Below are positions 17,866 through 60,751 of a DNA stretch of 64,000 nt, in pieces. The stretch's first letter is position 1. The number at the start of each line of letters is the position of its first letter. The stretch covers positions 248,001 to 312,000 of the forward strand of contig NZ_CANMDB010000001.1 of the NCBI RefSeq assembly GCF_947496515.1, given 5' to 3'. The translations under genes were made by a program, and so were the position numbers. Source of the DNA: an uncultured Roseobacter sp. GTDB lineage: Bacteria > Pseudomonadota > Alphaproteobacteria > Rhodobacterales > Rhodobacteraceae. The notes below the pieces were generated by a model. The model was not told where the DNA came from. It ran no database searches and was given only the letters and a program-made list of their open reading frames with translations.

Positions 17866-18426
17866 CTACTCTCCGCGCGAAAGTGCCGCGACACCGGTGC
17901 GTGCCACGTCGGTCAGGCCCAGCGGGCGCATGAGATCCGCAAAAGCGTCGACCTTTTCCGGCGCGCCGGTGATCTCGAAGATGAAGCTTTCGAGCGTGCT
18001 ATCCACGACGCTCGCCCGGAAGATGTCGGCCAACCGCAGGGCTTCGACCCGTTTGTCACCGGTGCCGGTCACCTTGAACATGGCAAGCTCACGCTCGACG
18101 CTGGCGCCCTCGACGGTCAGGTCATGAACATCGTGCACGCTGACAATTCGGCCCAGCTGCGCCTTGATTTGCTCGATCACTTGCGGTGTGCCGGACGTCA
18201 CGATGGTGATCCGGCTCAGATGCCCCGTGTGATCAACTTCGGCGACGGTCAGGCTGTCGATGTTGTACCCACGCCCGGAAAACAGACCGATCACTCGCGC
18301 CAGAACCCCCGGCTCGTTCTCGACCAGCACCGCAAGTGTGTGCCGCTCCACCACATCCGAGAATGTGGGGCGCAGGTTGTAGGCGGAATGGCTGGTAGCA
18401 CCTTTTTTGATTTTTAGCGGGGACAT
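17866..18426 (-). CDS. ilvH: Acetolactate synthase small (regulatory) subunit
   Basis: A 186-aa regulatory subunit. An ACT domain (about residues 26-100) begins RHTLAVLVENEPGVLARVIGLF with the core VENEPGVLARV and GYNIDSL that bind valine at the dimer interface; a C-terminal ALS_ss_C domain follows. It activates the catalytic subunit and confers valine feedback inhibition. The ATG at 18426 (MSPLKIKKG) is chosen; the longer open frame upstream runs through the divergent promoter region. Unlike in many bacteria it is not adjacent to ilvI: a lipoprotein gene and an opposite-strand HAD-like gene lie between. Confidence 0.95.
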   Translation of the reverse strand: MSPLKIKKGATSHSAYNLRPTFSDVVERHTLAVLVENEPGVLARVIGLFSGRGYNIDSLTVAEVDHTGHLSRITIVTSGTPQVIEQIKAQLGRIVSVHDVHDLTVEGASVERELAMFKVTGTGDKRVEALRLADIFRASVVDSTLESFIFEITGAPEKVDAFADLMRPLGLTDVARTGVAALSRGE

Positions 18427-18505
18427 GGCGAACCTTTTTGAAGCTGAGACGTTGGAGAGGTTGAACGCAACTGCCGCGCGGCGCGGCCTTTGAACGGGAA
18501 ACCTC

Positions 18506-19174
18506 ATGAAACCGAAAGCAATTTTTCTGGGCGCCATCGGCACCGTTGTCGACACCTCTGATCTGCAGCGTCAGGCATTCAACGCAGCCTTTGAGCGCGC
18601 GGGCTTGGACTGGTCGTGGGATTGGCCTGTTTACGAAAAATTGCTGGCGGTGGTGGGCGGCAAGAACCGCATCGCGGCCTATGCGCAGGAACGTGGGCAA
18701 GACGTTGATGTGGCAGCGTTGCACGCCGCTAAATCCGAGATTTTCCAAACACGCATGCGGCGCGAAGGGCTGAGCCCACGCCCCGGTGTTGCCGAGTTGA
18801 TTGGATCGGCGAAAGCGCAGCGGATCCCGCTGGCGTGGGTGACGACAACGTCGCGGGAAAACATTGATGCGGCGCTGGATGCGTTGGGCGGGAAGGTCTC
18901 GGCCCATGATTTTGATCTGATCGTGGACCGCAGCATGGTCAACAACCCCAAACCCGACCCCGAATGTTACCGTCTCGCGATGCGCGAGCTCAACGTCAGC
19001 CCGGGCGATGTCGTGGCGGTGGAAGACACGCCCGAAAGCCTTCAAGCGGCCCGTCGTGCGGGTGCTTCCTGCGTGGCCTTTCCGGGGGCTGTGCCGCCGG
19101 GTAGCACTTGGGACGCTTCGGACGCGATTGTAGAGAACGTGGGCCACTTGCTGGACGAGGTGTTGGTGGAGTGA
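18506..19174 (+). CDS. HAD-like protein lacking the catalytic aspartates
   Basis: A 222-aa protein of the beta-phosphoglucomutase/CbbY-like HAD architecture: small helical cap at about residues 18-85, motif II WVTTTSREN, motif III Lys in NNPKPDPECY and motif IV VVAVEDTPES are all present. Motif I, which should read DxDGT, is FLGAIGTVVDT, so both the nucleophilic Asp and the general acid Asp are missing (Gly9 and Ile11). Phosphatase activity is therefore unlikely. Motifs II to IV remain intact, suggesting a ligand-binding or regulatory role rather than decay. It is divergent from ilvH, 79 nt away. Confidence 0.8.
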   Translation: MKPKAIFLGAIGTVVDTSDLQRQAFNAAFERAGLDWSWDWPVYEKLLAVVGGKNRIAAYAQERGQDVDVAALHAAKSEIFQTRMRREGLSPRPGVAELIGSAKAQRIPLAWVTTTSRENIDAALDALGGKVSAHDFDLIVDRSMVNNPKPDPECYRLAMRELNVSPGDVVAVEDTPESLQAARRAGASCVAFPGAVPPGSTWDASDAIVENVGHLLDEVLVE

Positions 19175-19419
19175 GTGTCTTGGTGGCAAAGTATGTGCCA
19201 AACACGAGGCGCCAGTCCGGTCGCTCATAGCACACCTACGAAACAGGAACATGGTGCAGAGCTGACCATTTGATCATCCCAGGTTTTGGTCAGGCGACCA
19301 TTGCATGCGTCTTTTCTACGGCCGAGGCCGGCTCGCACGTGGGACGATTGGTCCTCACGACAATAGGATGACGCGACCCGAACGCGGGCCGAGATGAGGA
19401 AGACATCCGACCGGTTCAT

Positions 19420-20037
19420 TTACAGGCTGTCCTCAACCAACACCCGGCACTTATAGGCGCCGAAGCGGGTTTTCGTCGCCCTTCCTGCAGGACTATCCCG
19501 CACGCGCATTTTCCCGGCAGACGCATTGCACCCCTCAAGTGCGGTACGATTTGCTTCGCGCTGCGAGGCTGCGTTTCCGGCGGTTGCGAATGCACCGTCC
19601 GTATTCATGGACAAAGCAGCGAACCTGCCAGCGGCAGTACGTGACCGCGCACGTTCCAAGGATTGGAATGCGGCAGCCGGAAGCCCGTCGGTCGCGGTGG
19701 GATCGACCGGTTCAACGGTCGCGTAAAGCACGCAAGCCATGCCATCTGCATGCTTGGCACTGATGTCGTCGCAGGTTGCTTTTGCCGCTCTTTTGGCGTC
19801 TGCGAGGGTTGGGGCCGCGCCCTGCCGTCCGCCACCGCGACCGTCTTCGGTGACATACATCGCGCCGAAAAAGTCGGTACTCTGCCTGAATTCTCGGAAC
19901 CGCGCCGTGCCGGTCGGCCCTAGCTCTATGGTCGAGAATACCTGGAGGGAACGACCGGACTGGCTGTCAGAAACCGGCGTGCAGCCCATGGCCAGTAGTA
20001 CCGCGATGCCGGTGAGAAACGTCGCTCGTGGCTTCAC
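19420..20037 (-). CDS. Secreted DUF4189-like lipoprotein, coupled to ilvI
   Basis: A 205-aa exported protein. The signal peptide ends LLAMGCTP, a near-lipobox, so it is probably lipidated at Cys19. The mature part holds two related units, each with an FGAMYV/FAALSM strand, an A-rich helix containing AKRAAKATCD or REANRTALEGC, and a closing ACVLYATVEP/YKCRVLVED strand, so Cys residues are paired. This resembles DUF4189-type repeats. The ATG overlaps the ilvI stop as ATGA, so it is translated by coupling from the ilvI mRNA. Function unknown; a link to acetolactate synthesis is not obvious. 19175-19419 carries no gene. Confidence 0.65.
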   Translation of the reverse strand: MKPRATFLTGIAVLLAMGCTPVSDSQSGRSLQVFSTIELGPTGTARFREFRQSTDFFGAMYVTEDGRGGGRQGAAPTLADAKRAAKATCDDISAKHADGMACVLYATVEPVDPTATDGLPAAAFQSLERARSRTAAGRFAALSMNTDGAFATAGNAASQREANRTALEGCNASAGKMRVRDSPAGRATKTRFGAYKCRVLVEDSL

Positions 20038-21785
20038 ACCAGCACGCTCCCCTTGCTGTCGATCACACCCTGGGTCTCCGCTTCGCCCAGCAGCATCTCG
20101 TTGTGCGCTTTACCCGACGGGATCATGGGGAAGCAGTTTTCGTGCTTTTCCACCAGACAGTCAAAGATTACCGGGCCATCGTGGTTGATCATCTCCATGA
20201 TCGCATCGTCGAGATCGTCGGGATCCGAGCACAGGATACCCTTGGCACCAAAGGCCTCGGCCAGCTTCACGAAATCAGGCAGCGCTTCGGACCAGCTTTG
20301 CGAGTAACGTTCGCCGTGCAGCAACTCCTGCCACTGGCGCACCATGCCGAGACGTTCGTTGTTCAGGATGAACTGTTTGACGGGCAGGCGGTATTGAACG
20401 GCCGTGCCCATCTCCTGCATGTTCATCAGCCAGCTCGCCTCGCCCGCGACGTTGATCACCAGCGCATCCGGATGGCCCATCTGCACGCCGATGGAGGCAG
20501 GGAAGCCGTAACCCATGGTGCCCAGGCCGCCGGAGGTCATCCAGCGGTTGGGGTCTTCAAAACCCAGGTATTGCGCCGCCCACATTTGATGCTGGCCCAC
20601 TTCGGTGCAAATGTAGCGGTCGTGCTTCTTGGTCAGCTCTTCCAGCCGCACGAGCGCGTGCTGTGGTTTGATGGTCTTGCCGGTCTGCTTGAACTTCAGG
20701 CAATCGACCTCTTTCCAGGCTTCGATCTGGCGCCACCATTTGGCAAGCGCCTCGGAATTTGTTTTGCGCCCGCGCGACTTCCAAACCTTGAGGATATCCT
20801 CCAGCACATGGCCCACATCGCCAACGATGGGGATGTCGGTCTTGATGACCTTGTTGATGGAGGAGGGGTCGATGTCGATATGTGCCTTGATCGACTTGGG
20901 GCTGAAGGCATCTATGCGCCCGGTGATCCGGTCATCGAAGCGCGCGCCGATGTTGATCATCAGATCGCAATCATGCATCGCCATATTCGCCTGGTAGAGC
21001 CCGTGCATCCCCAACATGCCAAGCCAGTTTTCGCCTGACGCCGGGTAGCTGCCGAGCCCCATCAGTGTAGAGGTAATCGGAAATCCGGTGGCCTTGACCA
21101 GCTCGCGCAACAGCTGGCTGGCGGCGGGGCCCGAATTGATCACACCGCCGCCTGTGTAAAAGACGGGCCGCTTTGCCTTTTCCATGGCCGCCACCAGCTC
21201 GGTGATCTCCTCCATGTCGCCCTTGACCCTCGGCTGGTACCGCGAGGCGGAGGGTTTCGGCGGCGCGTAGCTGCCCGTGGCGAACTGCACGTCCTTGGGG
21301 ATGTCGACGAGCACCGGACCGGGCCGTCCTTGCGTGGCCACGTGAAATGCCTCGTGGAGAACACCGGCGAGGCGCTCTGTTTCTTTCACCAGCCAATTGT
21401 GCTTGGTGCAGGGGCGGGTGATGCCGACGGTATCGGCCTCCTGAAAGGCGTCCGATCCGATCATGAACGTGGGCACCTGGCCGGTCAGCACGACGATCGG
21501 GATGGAATCCATCAGCGCGTCGGTCAGGCCGGTCACGGCATTTGTCGCACCAGGCCCGGAGGTCACAATGACGACGCCCGGTTTGCCGGTCGCACGGGCG
21601 TATCCTTCTGCTGCATGCACCGCGCCTTGCTCGTGGCGCACCAGAATGTGCCGGATCGCATTTTGTTGGTGCAATTCGTCGTAGATCGGCAGGACCGCGC
21701 CGCCGGGGTATCCAAATACGGTGTCAACGCCCTGATCGATCAAGGCCTGGACAATCATCTTTGCGCCGGACATCTGCCGTGTCAT
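20034..21785 (-). CDS. ilvI: Acetolactate synthase large (catalytic) subunit
   Basis: A 583-aa ThDP- and FAD-dependent enzyme that makes 2-acetolactate or 2-aceto-2-hydroxybutyrate from pyruvate, the first common step of Val, Leu and Ile synthesis. The N-terminal PYR domain has FGYPGGAVLPIYD and RHEQGAVHAAEGYAR with the catalytic Glu; the FAD-binding middle domain follows; the C-terminal PP domain has a GDAS-like motif read as NVAGEASWLMN. ATG at 21785. A leader peptide and attenuator lie directly upstream, so end-product amino acids should control transcription. Partner ilvH is 1.6 kb downstream. Confidence 0.97.
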   Translation of the reverse strand: MTRQMSGAKMIVQALIDQGVDTVFGYPGGAVLPIYDELHQQNAIRHILVRHEQGAVHAAEGYARATGKPGVVIVTSGPGATNAVTGLTDALMDSIPIVVLTGQVPTFMIGSDAFQEADTVGITRPCTKHNWLVKETERLAGVLHEAFHVATQGRPGPVLVDIPKDVQFATGSYAPPKPSASRYQPRVKGDMEEITELVAAMEKAKRPVFYTGGGVINSGPAASQLLRELVKATGFPITSTLMGLGSYPASGENWLGMLGMHGLYQANMAMHDCDLMINIGARFDDRITGRIDAFSPKSIKAHIDIDPSSINKVIKTDIPIVGDVGHVLEDILKVWKSRGRKTNSEALAKWWRQIEAWKEVDCLKFKQTGKTIKPQHALVRLEELTKKHDRYICTEVGQHQMWAAQYLGFEDPNRWMTSGGLGTMGYGFPASIGVQMGHPDALVINVAGEASWLMNMQEMGTAVQYRLPVKQFILNNERLGMVRQWQELLHGERYSQSWSEALPDFVKLAEAFGAKGILCSDPDDLDDAIMEMINHDGPVIFDCLVEKHENCFPMIPSGKAHNEMLLGEAETQGVIDSKGSVLV

Positions 21786-21837
21786 ATCTTTGAACTCCGC
21801 TGTGGCCTGTGCCAGGCCGCTTTTACCTTTCGGACAT

Positions 21838-21871
21838 AAAAAAGCCCCCGGTTTTGGCGGGGGCGCAAGGG
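21838..21871 (-). terminator. ilvI transcription attenuator (terminator/antiterminator region)
   Basis: Read on the minus strand, GCCCCCG, a 7-nt loop and CGGGGGC are followed by TTTTTT (21838-21864), an intrinsic terminator before ilvI. A segment CCCTTGCGC (21863-21871) overlapping its first arm can pair with GCGCATGGG inside the leader reading frame (21896-21904), with one U-U mismatch. This would be the alternative antiterminator when ribosomes stall at the Val/Leu/Ile codons. Confidence 0.82.
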
Positions 21872-21888
21872 TCAGAAGATGGTCTCCG

Positions 21889-21936
21889 CTACCGGCCCAT
21901 GCGCAACTTTCCTACAATGACGACTAGAACAGCCAT
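21889..21936 (-). CDS. ilvI leader peptide (branched-chain amino acid attenuator peptide)
   Basis: A 15-residue open frame MAVLVVIVGKLRMGR followed by TAG. Seven of the 15 codons are Val, Leu or Ile, and six of these lie consecutively at codons 3-8. AGAAGGGGCG lies upstream of the ATG as a ribosome-binding site. A G/C-rich terminator hairpin follows 25 nt after its stop and ilvI starts 50 nt beyond that. Composition, size and position match leader peptides of ilv operons. Too short for routine gene finders. Confidence 0.88.
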   Translation of the reverse strand: MAVLVVIVGKLRMGR

Positions 21937-22113
21937 GGAACGCCCCTTCTTCATGTTTGGCGACATTAGAAGCGGGTACAGATAGCGTCAAGCGCCTTCT
22001 GCAGAAAAAAATATGTCCTGAGACAGCGGTTTCATGACAGATCATTGCAGCCAGCGCCGGTATCGAGACATTTTCGCAATTCCGGACACCAGGATCGAGC
22101 CGGTTTCGAGAGA

Positions 22114-55819: not shown

Positions 55820-57331
55820 ATGCTCGAAGGTCTGTTGATCGGTCTGCAAACGGCCCTCTCCGTTCAAAACCTGCTGATGGTCATCGGCGGATGTCTCATC
55901 GGGACGTTTATCGGGATGCTGCCCGGGCTGGGGCCGATGTCGATCATCGCGATCATGATCCCGGTGGCGATTTCCATGGGCGATCCCTCTGCCGCGCTGA
56001 TCCTGCTGGCGGGGGTCTATTATGGGGCGATTTTCGGCGGTTCGACCTCTTCCATCCTGCTGAACGCGCCGGGTGTCGCGGGAACGGTGGCGTCGAGTTT
56101 CGACGGCTACCCGATGGCGCGACAGGGCAAGGCGGGCAAGGCGCTGACCATCGCGGCCATCGCCAGTTTCGCGGGCGGCACCATCGGCGCGCTGCTGCTG
56201 ATGATCTTTGCGCCGATGCTGTCGTCTGTGGCGCTGCTGTTCCATTCGGCGGAGTATTTCGCGCTGATGGTGGTGGGCCTGTCGGCCATCGCGGCCTTTG
56301 CGGGCACGGGGCAGGTGGCCAAGGCGCTGATCATGACCATTCTGGGGCTGATCATGGCCACCGTGGGCGAGGGTGCGCTGTTCAACCTGCCACGCTTCAC
56401 CATGGGGATCATGGATCTGCAATCGGGCTTCGGGTTCATCACGCTGGCGATGGCGATGTTTGCGCTGCCCGAGGCGCTGTTTCTGGTGCTCAAGCCCAAG
56501 GACATGAAGGGCGGTGAGGGCGATATCAAGGACCTGCGCATCAGCCGGTCCGAGGCGCGCGCGATTGCACCGGTGATCGGACGCCAATCCTTGCAGGGGT
56601 TCTTTATCGGCGTGTTGCCGGGGGCAGGGGCGACGATTGCCAGTTTTCTGGGCTACGCGGTCGAGCGCAACATCGCGCCCAAGGCCGAGCAGGAGGAGTT
56701 CGGCAAAGGCTCCATCAAGGGGTTGGCGGCGCCGGAGAGTGCCAACAACGCCGCCTGCACGGGGTCTTTCGTGCCGTTGCTGACGCTGGGCATTCCCGGC
56801 TCGGGGACGACGGCGATCCTGCTGGGGGCGCTGATTGCGCTGAATGTGACACCGGGGCCACGGCTGATGATCGACGAGCCGCAGATCTTCTGGGCCGTGA
56901 TCATGTCGATGTTCATCGGCAATCTGGTGCTGCTGATCCTGAACCTGCCGCTGATCCCTTACATCGCCAAGGTGCTGGCGGTGCCGCGCAATTATCTGAT
57001 CCCGTTCATTCTGTTTTTCACGCTGATGGGGGCCTATATCGGGCAGAACAACGCCACGGAGCTGTTGTTGCTGGTGGGTTTCGGGGTCTGTGCCACGGCA
57101 CTCAAATTTGCGGACTACCCGCTGGCGCCACTGCTCATCGGGTTTATCCTTGGCGGGATGATGGAGAATAACTTCGCCCGCTCCATGCAGCTCTATGACG
57201 GGGTGTCCTTCATCTGGGAGCGGCCGATGACGCTGGGTCTGCTCGCGGTGGCGGTGTTTTTGGTGGTGCTGCCGAGCTACCGGGCGCGGATCGCCCGGAA
57301 ACGTGCCGAAGGTGTGGCGGACGGCGATTGA
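55820..57331 (+). CDS. tctA: Tripartite tricarboxylate transporter TctA-like large permease
   Basis: A 503-aa permease with 11-12 hydrophobic helices. GTFIGMLPGLGPMSIIAIMIP is the first TctA motif (core MLPGLGPM), followed by YGAIFGGSTSSILLN and a mirrored second half with GVLPGAGATIASFLGY and LGIPGSGTTAILLGAL. Both halves have the PGLG/PGAG re-entrant loops expected. ATG at 55820 is 1 nt after the tctB stop. Ends the operon; a hairpin follows. Confidence 0.95.
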   Translation: MLEGLLIGLQTALSVQNLLMVIGGCLIGTFIGMLPGLGPMSIIAIMIPVAISMGDPSAALILLAGVYYGAIFGGSTSSILLNAPGVAGTVASSFDGYPMARQGKAGKALTIAAIASFAGGTIGALLLMIFAPMLSSVALLFHSAEYFALMVVGLSAIAAFAGTGQVAKALIMTILGLIMATVGEGALFNLPRFTMGIMDLQSGFGFITLAMAMFALPEALFLVLKPKDMKGGEGDIKDLRISRSEARAIAPVIGRQSLQGFFIGVLPGAGATIASFLGYAVERNIAPKAEQEEFGKGSIKGLAAPESANNAACTGSFVPLLTLGIPGSGTTAILLGALIALNVTPGPRLMIDEPQIFWAVIMSMFIGNLVLLILNLPLIPYIAKVLAVPRNYLIPFILFFTLMGAYIGQNNATELLLLVGFGVCATALKFADYPLAPLLIGFILGGMMENNFARSMQLYDGVSFIWERPMTLGLLAVAVFLVVLPSYRARIARKRAEGVADGD

Positions 57332-60337: not shown

Positions 60338-60751
60338 GTGCACCTAAGTTTTCGGCGCATTCTTCGATTCTGGGCTAGGACAGCGCCCAAAACGCGCATG
60401 CAGCGATTTGGAGCTGGTCTGATGGCGATCAACTCCACTTTTTGCACAATCATTATCGTGATGACTGTCATAAACGCGTCATCGGATGCTTGGACGCTTG
60501 GTGGGGTTTGGGCTAGTGCCGTTCGCCTGAGCGTTATCGTGTTATTGCTACCATTTGGGATAGCACACGGCTTGGCCGCTGTTTTTCCTCGGATTTTTGA
60601 AGCTTGGAACGACAAGCCGACAGATCATGTAGACGGGATGAGAGTGCTTTTCTCTGACAGGTTGAGAGATTTGTATCTCGTGCTTGGGTGGGCGTTCTTG
60701 GTCGGCACGGTTGTCTTTATTGTCGTACTACTCGTCTCTCGGATATTTTGA
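60338..60751 (+). CDS. Small hypothetical membrane protein, 137 aa
   Basis: A GTG-started protein with three or four hydrophobic helices (FCTIIIVMTVINASS, LSVIVLLLPFGIAHGL, LGWAFLVGTVVFIVVLLVS) and a charged loop between the last two. Family unknown. GC is lower than in the neighbourhood. It lies inside the IS cluster, between a left-end remnant and a broken transposase, and so looks like passenger DNA. Confidence 0.55.
   Translation: MHLSFRRILRFWARTAPKTRMQRFGAGLMAINSTFCTIIIVMTVINASSDAWTLGGVWASAVRLSVIVLLLPFGIAHGLAAVFPRIFEAWNDKPTDHVDGMRVLFSDRLRDLYLVLGWAFLVGTVVFIVVLLVSRIF

Follow-up and report, generated by a model that had tools for sequence, protein, structure and literature searches.

A putative ribosome-mediated attenuator upstream of ilvI in Rhodobacteraceae, and its probable homologue upstream of an MFS transporter gene

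The leader of the acetolactate synthase gene ilvI in the 64-kb stretch of DNA analysed here (the window, in which the leader element is read on the minus strand) is, with high probability, a ribosome-mediated transcription attenuator predicted to sense the charged tRNAs for valine, isoleucine and leucine. What we find at this locus is a short frame with start, ribosome site and stop, a conserved run of control codons, a terminator located before the gene and the ribosome spacing of an attenuator. On balance, the comparison also favours a wider reading, according to which one homologous module would serve ilvI in Rhodobacteraceae, with mixed Leu, Val and Ile codons, and scattered alphaproteobacterial genes for a Bcr/CflA-type MFS transporter, with mostly Val codons; the MFS gene would thus be placed in a valine-tRNA-sensing response, and a minimal-overlap antiterminator is possible.

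The gene encodes the acetolactate synthase large subunit (583 aa; 20034–21785, minus strand), with the Pfam domains TPP_enzyme_N, TPP_enzyme_M and TPP_enzyme_C and with orthologues in relatives. It is not adjacent to ilvH (ALS_ss_C and ACT domains): a 205-aa frame with no Pfam match and a convergent HAD-hydrolase gene are placed between them (window 17866–20037), so that control of ilvI, as originally predicted, is the right scope. Upstream of the leader lies a gene for an MCP-signal protein (22836–22114). Elsewhere in the window, at 56855–56982 on the minus strand, there is an Rfam match to the Cis8_sRNA of Ruegeria (123.3 bits).

The leader peptide frame, MAVLVVIVGKLRMGR, occupies positions 21889–21936 (minus strand; ATG at 21936, stop codon TAG at 21891–21889) and was recognized in the sequence and by a codon search in relatives. 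It reads ATG GCT GTT CTA GTC GTC ATT GTA GGA AAG TTG CGC ATG GGC CGG TAG; the control codons GTT CTA GTC GTC ATT GTA (21913–21930, minus strand), encoding Val-Leu-Val-Val-Ile-Val, are codons 3–8 of the frame and stand at positions -13 to -8 before the stop. The frame with six consecutive Val/Leu/Ile codons announced by the original prediction is hence confirmed, as is its ribosome site, AAGGGG, found 6 nt upstream of the ATG. A putative promoter (21963–21991, minus strand) comprises a -35 hexamer TTGACG (21991–21986), a 17-nt spacer and a -10 hexamer TAATGT (21968–21963). A strict sigma-70 consensus scan found no promoter; we propose this one from recurrence in the family leaders, 46 of 49 of which have a TTGAC-type -35 and a -10-like hexamer 81–107 nt (mostly 87–91) before segment 2, this being a recurrence count without a chance rate.

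Inside the frame lies the 5′ arm of the predicted antiterminator helix P1 (segment 2, GCGCATGGG; 21896–21904), followed by a small hairpin, P2 (CCG-GTAG-CGG; 21886–21895), which has the stop codon in its loop, and by the 3′ arm of P1 (segment 3, CCCTTGCGC; 21863–21871). The predicted intrinsic terminator (21838–21864; stem 21864–21858 / 21850–21844, T6 at 21843–21838) starts 25 nt past the leader stop and has a TTTTTT tail, as had been described; its stem has seven G-C pairs and its loop 7 nt. All these features are on the minus strand; P2, segment 3 and the terminator are backed by pair counts, and the terminator by its sequence as well. The last two bases of the P1 3′ arm (21864–21863) are the first two of the terminator stem. 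The pairing of 21904–21896 with 21871–21863, originally predicted to overlap the terminator arm, was found to hold at 8 of 9 positions with a 2-nt overlap, the remaining position being a U-U mismatch. This U-U, at columns 39/77 of alignment A1 (see below), is unique to the window among 44 sequences, and the window P1 duplex has -13.0 kcal/mol, versus -17.0 kcal/mol for the family pairing.

The window contains 1584 frames of 10–30 aa from start to stop, 10 of which include five consecutive V/I/L codons and seven of which include six. The latter seven correspond to two sites: three are nested starts of the leader itself, and four are nested starts in a stretch of hydrophobic codons at 60662–60698 on the plus strand. 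As the minimum free energy of the leader is not unusual when compared with shuffled sequences (z = -0.08), the case for an attenuator rests on comparison, not on fold stability. The window genome has a single copy of the element in a search with covariance model R1. No family of Rfam (Rfam 15) reaches the gathering score over the window leader, the seven permissive matches in 21700–22100 being all far under their cut-offs, and Rfam gave no match either when five of the MFS loci and another ilvI locus were searched.

IlvI matches were obtained in 88 of 99 relatives. The upstream DNA was examined at 70 IlvI orthologue loci (L001–L070, 30 of them from this search), 57 of which (from 56 genomes) belong to the family of the window. 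When leaders were recognized by codons only, requiring a start and at least four V/I/L among the five codons at -12 to -8 before the stop, 48 of the 57 family loci, chosen by IlvI orthology only, had one. A separate selection, based on a helix-arm DNA pattern and a T-tract with no codon criterion, was positive at 49 of 56 family loci, L057 being outside that count. At these pattern-selected loci, V/I/L codons are present at -12, -11, -10, -9 and -8 in 45, 49, 48, 48 and 45 of 49 cases (235/245 cells), and the run is sharply bounded (6/49 at codon -13 and 1/49 at codon -7). The original prediction had named relatives lacking the leader frame or its Val/Leu/Ile codons as the observation that would speak against it; with both present at 48 of 57 loci, that objection fails.

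Model R1 matches 338 of 394 family genomes at E <= 0.01 and leaves 56 without a match; by our own count of the matches listed, 314 of the 338 are at about 1e-10 or better, and about 31 of the 394 genomes had supplied model sequences. The predicted attenuator upstream of ilvI is thus supported by comparison, both over loci (48/57) and over genomes (338/394). The gene downstream of the match was determined in 61 family cases, being ilvI in 46, an MFS gene in nine and neither of them in six weak ones; the best R1 matches of genomes G019, G022 and G026 lie at the MFS gene, not at ilvI. Several candidates were rejected as elements: L140–L143 (family genomes) and L110–L116 (class survey, R1 23–28 bits) look like terminators only, and L139 and L260 have no ilvI or MFS match.

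Nine of the 57 family loci were missed by the codon test, L047 and L048 among these still carrying the RNA. Eight family loci are outside the pattern set. Five of these (L037, L051, L053, L054 and L056) have retained a terminator-like site together with a short frame that contains V/I/L codons. Branched-chain amino acid (BCAA) frames with diverged RNA are found at L037 (MTNTVVLIGRAR), L051 (MRHNVVLI) and L053 (MNGILVLCWRGDRAA), and at L054 and L056 the frame makes a poor leader. L043 shows a terminator-like site only; L055 and L057 show neither such a site nor a BCAA leader. R1 scores 40.7 bits at L054, 28.8 at L043, 21.6 at L037 and 18.4 at L051, and gives no match at L053, L055, L056 and L057, nor at the 13 class-level ilvI orthologues outside the family (L058–L070). 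A loose frame screen outside the family flagged L064, L066, L069 and L070, of which we judge only the last to be leader-like. L070 (genome G062) has a different V/I/L-rich short frame upstream of ilvI, MTTQLVLIRQPLSGRD.

Alignment A1 comprises 44 of the 49 pattern-selected leaders, and the structure scored on it includes nine pairs of P1, three of P2 and five of the inner terminator. In A1, 98.0% of the cells are paired, and none of 500 shuffles equals the alignment on any of five measures. When the structure is slid by one or two columns, 22–57% of the cells are paired; both-side changes still occur in slid structures, at no more than 4 pairs and in no more than 6 cells, versus 6 and 6 observed. 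P2 is paired in 93.9% of cells, with both-side changes in two of its three pairs. P1 is paired in 98.7% of cells (44 sequences) and its covariation is thin because the helix is nearly invariant: we found a single both-side change (A-U replacing G-C), plus a few G-U pairs. Part of this invariance is built in, as the selecting pattern fixes most of the P1 5′ arm. As to the compensatory changes put forward as a check on the original prediction, six pairs of the alignment as a whole show both-side changes, P1 itself contributing just the one.

Codon degeneracy provides a stronger argument than covariation, and indicates an RNA-level constraint on the helix arm. The outermost (first) base of P1 is the third position of codon -5, which in the helix is paired with base two of the terminator stem. 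All 48 codon-only leaders (48/48) have G there, although the residue encoded varies (T 18, K 8, W 7, R 6, M 3, L 2, S 2 and two others); the 49/49 G of the pattern-selected set is circular, as the pattern requires it. Among 69 further ilvI loci found by the models, 67 have leaders by codons and 66 of these have G at this position, the single exception, L129, having its stop one codon earlier. Since the base is fixed despite the varying residue and pairs with a base of the terminator arm, the overlap looks selected.

The strong R1 matches outside the family (L104–L107, 62–72 bits) are located just upstream of an MFS transporter gene, not of ilvI, and two weaker ones (L108 and L109; 39 and 34 bits) are also at the MFS gene; terminator-like chance matches in the class-level R1 search score 23–28 bits. 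When 18 family genomes were re-searched, nine R1 matches were found before the MFS gene. The MFS proteins are 49–67% identical to the first of the set, and four of five are above the TIGR00710 Bcr/CflA cut-off of 200.9 (216.8, 220.4, 217.3 and 224.6), L109 being below it (195.7). MFS relatives were collected as the best 80 of 283 from a scan of named genomes with the MFS alignment, to which L225, from the window genome, was added. In 60 of these 81, the R1 element immediately precedes the MFS gene in the same orientation, 58 of them at E 1e-4 or better (examples among L145–L224 are L165:1875–1975 and L204:1838–1938); the sample is biased, because the query derives from element-bearing loci and only the best 80 of 283 were kept. 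We rejected L225, the best MFS match of the window genome, as an orthologue, since it is without the element and sits on a long branch.

On the MFS tree, the element occurs in 44 of 46 rows of one large group and in 16 of the other 35, and its label is clustered (9 changes versus 18.9 in shuffles). The hosts, to go by the titles of the records, include Roseobacter, Sulfitobacter, Leisingera, Roseibium, Devosia, Microvirga, Inquilinus, Pelagibius and Kiloniellaceae. Inspection by eye of 12 of the 80 MFS neighbourhoods showed no shared neighbour. Some individual loci deserve mention. At L146, from a contig titled Anaerolineae MAG, the MFS gene is 92% identical to that of the alphaproteobacterial MAG L145, and the Anaerolineae assignment is probably a binning error. 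An inserted base in the helix arm of the MFS leader at L157:1875–1975 shifts the frame and ends the peptide early. L189 and L194 (proteobacterial MAGs) have no R1 element; about 200 nt before the same MFS gene, they have Val-rich short frames ending VVVVSVVVRVRLSP and FVVVTVVESLMLSP and a terminator-like site, which may make up a valine attenuator of separate origin.

At codons -11 to -8, Val is found in 25, 42, 37 and 34 of 49 MFS elements (out of the 60). V/I/L account for 158 of the 196 codons at these positions, and Val for 138 of the 158, compared with 130 Val among 235 V/I/L control codons in the ilvI set. The V/I/L run ends at codon -8, as in the ilvI type. Of the 49, 47 have G as the third base of codon -5, a base to which the model used to find these elements is sensitive. 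The overlap of P1 and terminator is 3 nt in the MFS type. P2 is weaker in this set, with 76.9% paired and 1 to 48 of 500 shuffles reaching the five measures. Scored with a different hairpin, AACGG/CCGTT, the structure is reached by none of 500 shuffles, yet this hairpin is paired in just 67.8% of cells, and slid structures show both-side changes at as many as 7 pairs and in as many as 21 cells, versus 8 and 18 observed.

Model R2, built from MFS elements only, finds the window ilvI element with 70 bits (E 8.5e-15). It matches 127 of 149 family genomes; all 22 newly fetched loci are at ilvI, and a few others are MFS copies. In 385 class genomes, R2 gave 16 matches at E 1e-4 or better. The five that belong to the family are without exception at ilvI, and the 11 from other genomes are without exception at the MFS gene. 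The element is sparse outside the family of the window. The reciprocal matches of R1 and R2 argue that the ilvI and MFS attenuators are homologous. The MFS type has the wider taxonomic spread and may therefore have arisen first; the MFS gene may also have been transferred horizontally together with its leader.

Folding was run with the ribosome footprint masked, either at the stop codon or at the control codons. The whole P1 5′ arm is free as long as the A-site is at codon -9 (Ile) or further upstream. An A-site at -8, the last control codon, masks the first two bases of the arm, and a ribosome at the stop codon masks all of it. The footprint geometry had been called tight in the original prediction. 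As P1 stays unmasked for an A-site at any but the last of the five conserved control codons, and so at four of them, that concern is answered. The middle pair of P1 is predicted at about 1.0 with the A-site at -8 or upstream and at 0 with the ribosome at the stop, where the terminator is predicted at about 1.0. When amino acids are ample, the ribosome would reach the stop and cover the P1 5′ arm, the terminator would form and transcription would stop; when charged tRNA is short, the ribosome would stall at codons -12 to -9, P1 would form and read-through into ilvI would rise.

A mutually exclusive switch was expected from masked folding; the equilibrium folds gave near-coexistence instead, P1 and the terminator sharing just 2 nt. 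With a stalled ribosome, the outer pair of the terminator is still at 0.82 (median; 0.86 in the window) at equilibrium, and the two outer pairs of P1, contested by the terminator, are at only 0.13–0.25. The proposal that stalling frees the antiterminator stands in so far as the arm is free when the ribosome is stalled, and does not stand in the equilibrium folds as to the terminator, which forms anyway. In intrinsic termination, the stem pairs beside the U-tract must close while the RNA-DNA hybrid melts. P1 would work with a 2-nt overlap because both bases make the last two pairs of the terminator stem, and we infer a kinetic switch on these last two hairpin pairs, beside the U-tract.

The coexistence of both helices and their two shared nucleotides also suit a leader that is a real attenuator but in which P1 is not a competing antiterminator, the ribosomes acting on the terminator directly, by coupling or occlusion, and P1 only shielding or pausing. 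So do the MFS-type elements (n = 49), in which the outer terminator pair has a median of 0.98 even when stalled, the equilibrium switch being weaker than in the ilvI type. We consider this unlikely, although worth keeping in mind, since the third-base G of codon -5 (48/48) has no visible role besides the P1 pair that overlaps the terminator. Terminators closed by G-U, found at seven loci (L022, L035, L036, L040, L044, L047 and L048), also argue against it: six of them show a large predicted switch, from 0.64–0.92 at the stop to 0.02–0.15 when stalled, and L048 does not (0.92 to 0.80). L025, closed by G-C, drops as well, from 0.95 to 0.06 when stalled.

The end of the leader peptide bears on a second alternative, which we hold to be quite improbable: that the peptide itself acts, by nascent-chain arrest near its RMGR end or in trans like peTrpL of S. 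meliloti, the helix being secondary. RMGR is exact in 40 of 48 leaders, and a trans-acting attenuator peptide is reported in an alphaproteobacterium (PMC7298713). However, the leader end is conserved as nucleotides, third positions included (-5 G 48/48, -4 C 47/48, -2 C 43/48, -1 G 44/48), and the third positions of the control Val codons are more variable than these. Moreover, the end residues differ by gene context (RMGR, RCMVR, RRLDR, RRRAR), whereas the P1 pairing is kept, in 95.7% of cells of the MFS-type set. That the frame arose by chance before an ordinary terminator of the upstream MCP-signal gene (22836–22114) has virtually no probability left and is already refuted by conservation: a short frame and a strong terminator may coincide by chance in an intergenic region, but short frames with six V/I/L codons in a row are confined to two places in the window, and the frame, the helix and a promoter-like site located between the leader and the gene upstream of it are found again across the family.

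Enterobacterial ilv, leu and trp attenuators combine control codons and a terminator with a helix that can form only if the ribosome has stalled, and the trp antiterminator overlaps its terminator by about 6 nt. Interpreted as a ribosome-mediated attenuator, the ilvI element resembles these in its control codons, its terminator and the stall-dependent helix proposed here, and differs in its overlap of 2 nt (3 in the MFS type) versus about 6 nt in trp. No upstream 1:2 protector helix was identified in the ilvI element, short of a systematic search. According to a passage in Corbino et al. 2005 (PMC1273637), the alphaproteobacterial ilvB leader peptide was described by Vitreschak et al. 2004; it shares with the ilvI element a leader peptide of the gene for the acetolactate synthase large subunit. 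To judge from that passage, the ilvI attenuator is of a kind already reported, and the two-target module would be the novel part. A Cys attenuator of Rhodobacterales, the cysS leader uORFC-8-2 (PMC8632094), has the same order as the ilvI leader, a short control-codon frame and then a terminator, and differs from it in its Cys codons and in the gene, cysS. A possible analogue of the MFS copies is bmrC/bmrD of Bacillus subtilis, a drug-transporter gene reported to be under ribosome-mediated attenuation (PMC4191407), which unlike them encodes an ABC pump of a Gram-positive host and is discussed under antibiotic pressure, the MFS copies having mostly valine codons.

Among the papers listed by our literature searches, none was seen to describe the ilvI element, or a Bcr/CflA gene with a valine attenuator. 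The term ilv is absent from the main text of PMC2965389, PMC2864571, PMC4809877 and PMC5107571, and the main text of PMC11921356, searched in the same way, contains it only in an ilvH figure label. As of 2013, Ile/Val attenuators were not represented in Rfam, as stated in a passage of PMC3766115.

The ilvI switch, for which no Rfam family matched, offers a testable rule of BCAA control for Rhodobacteraceae, abundant marine and phototrophic bacteria. The conserved 2-nt overlap offers a clean test of minimal antiterminator contact, because a synonymous base change in some relatives breaks that contact only; the module may block only the last 2–3 terminator pairs with a minimal-overlap antiterminator. 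The MFS homologue turns an uninformative annotation of drug-efflux type into the hypothesis that the gene should respond to valine supply. If true, the two-target module predicts a role of the MFS transporter in valine handling, which would be either uptake or the removal from the cell of a compound acting as an inhibitor of acetolactate synthase or depleting charged tRNA-Val.
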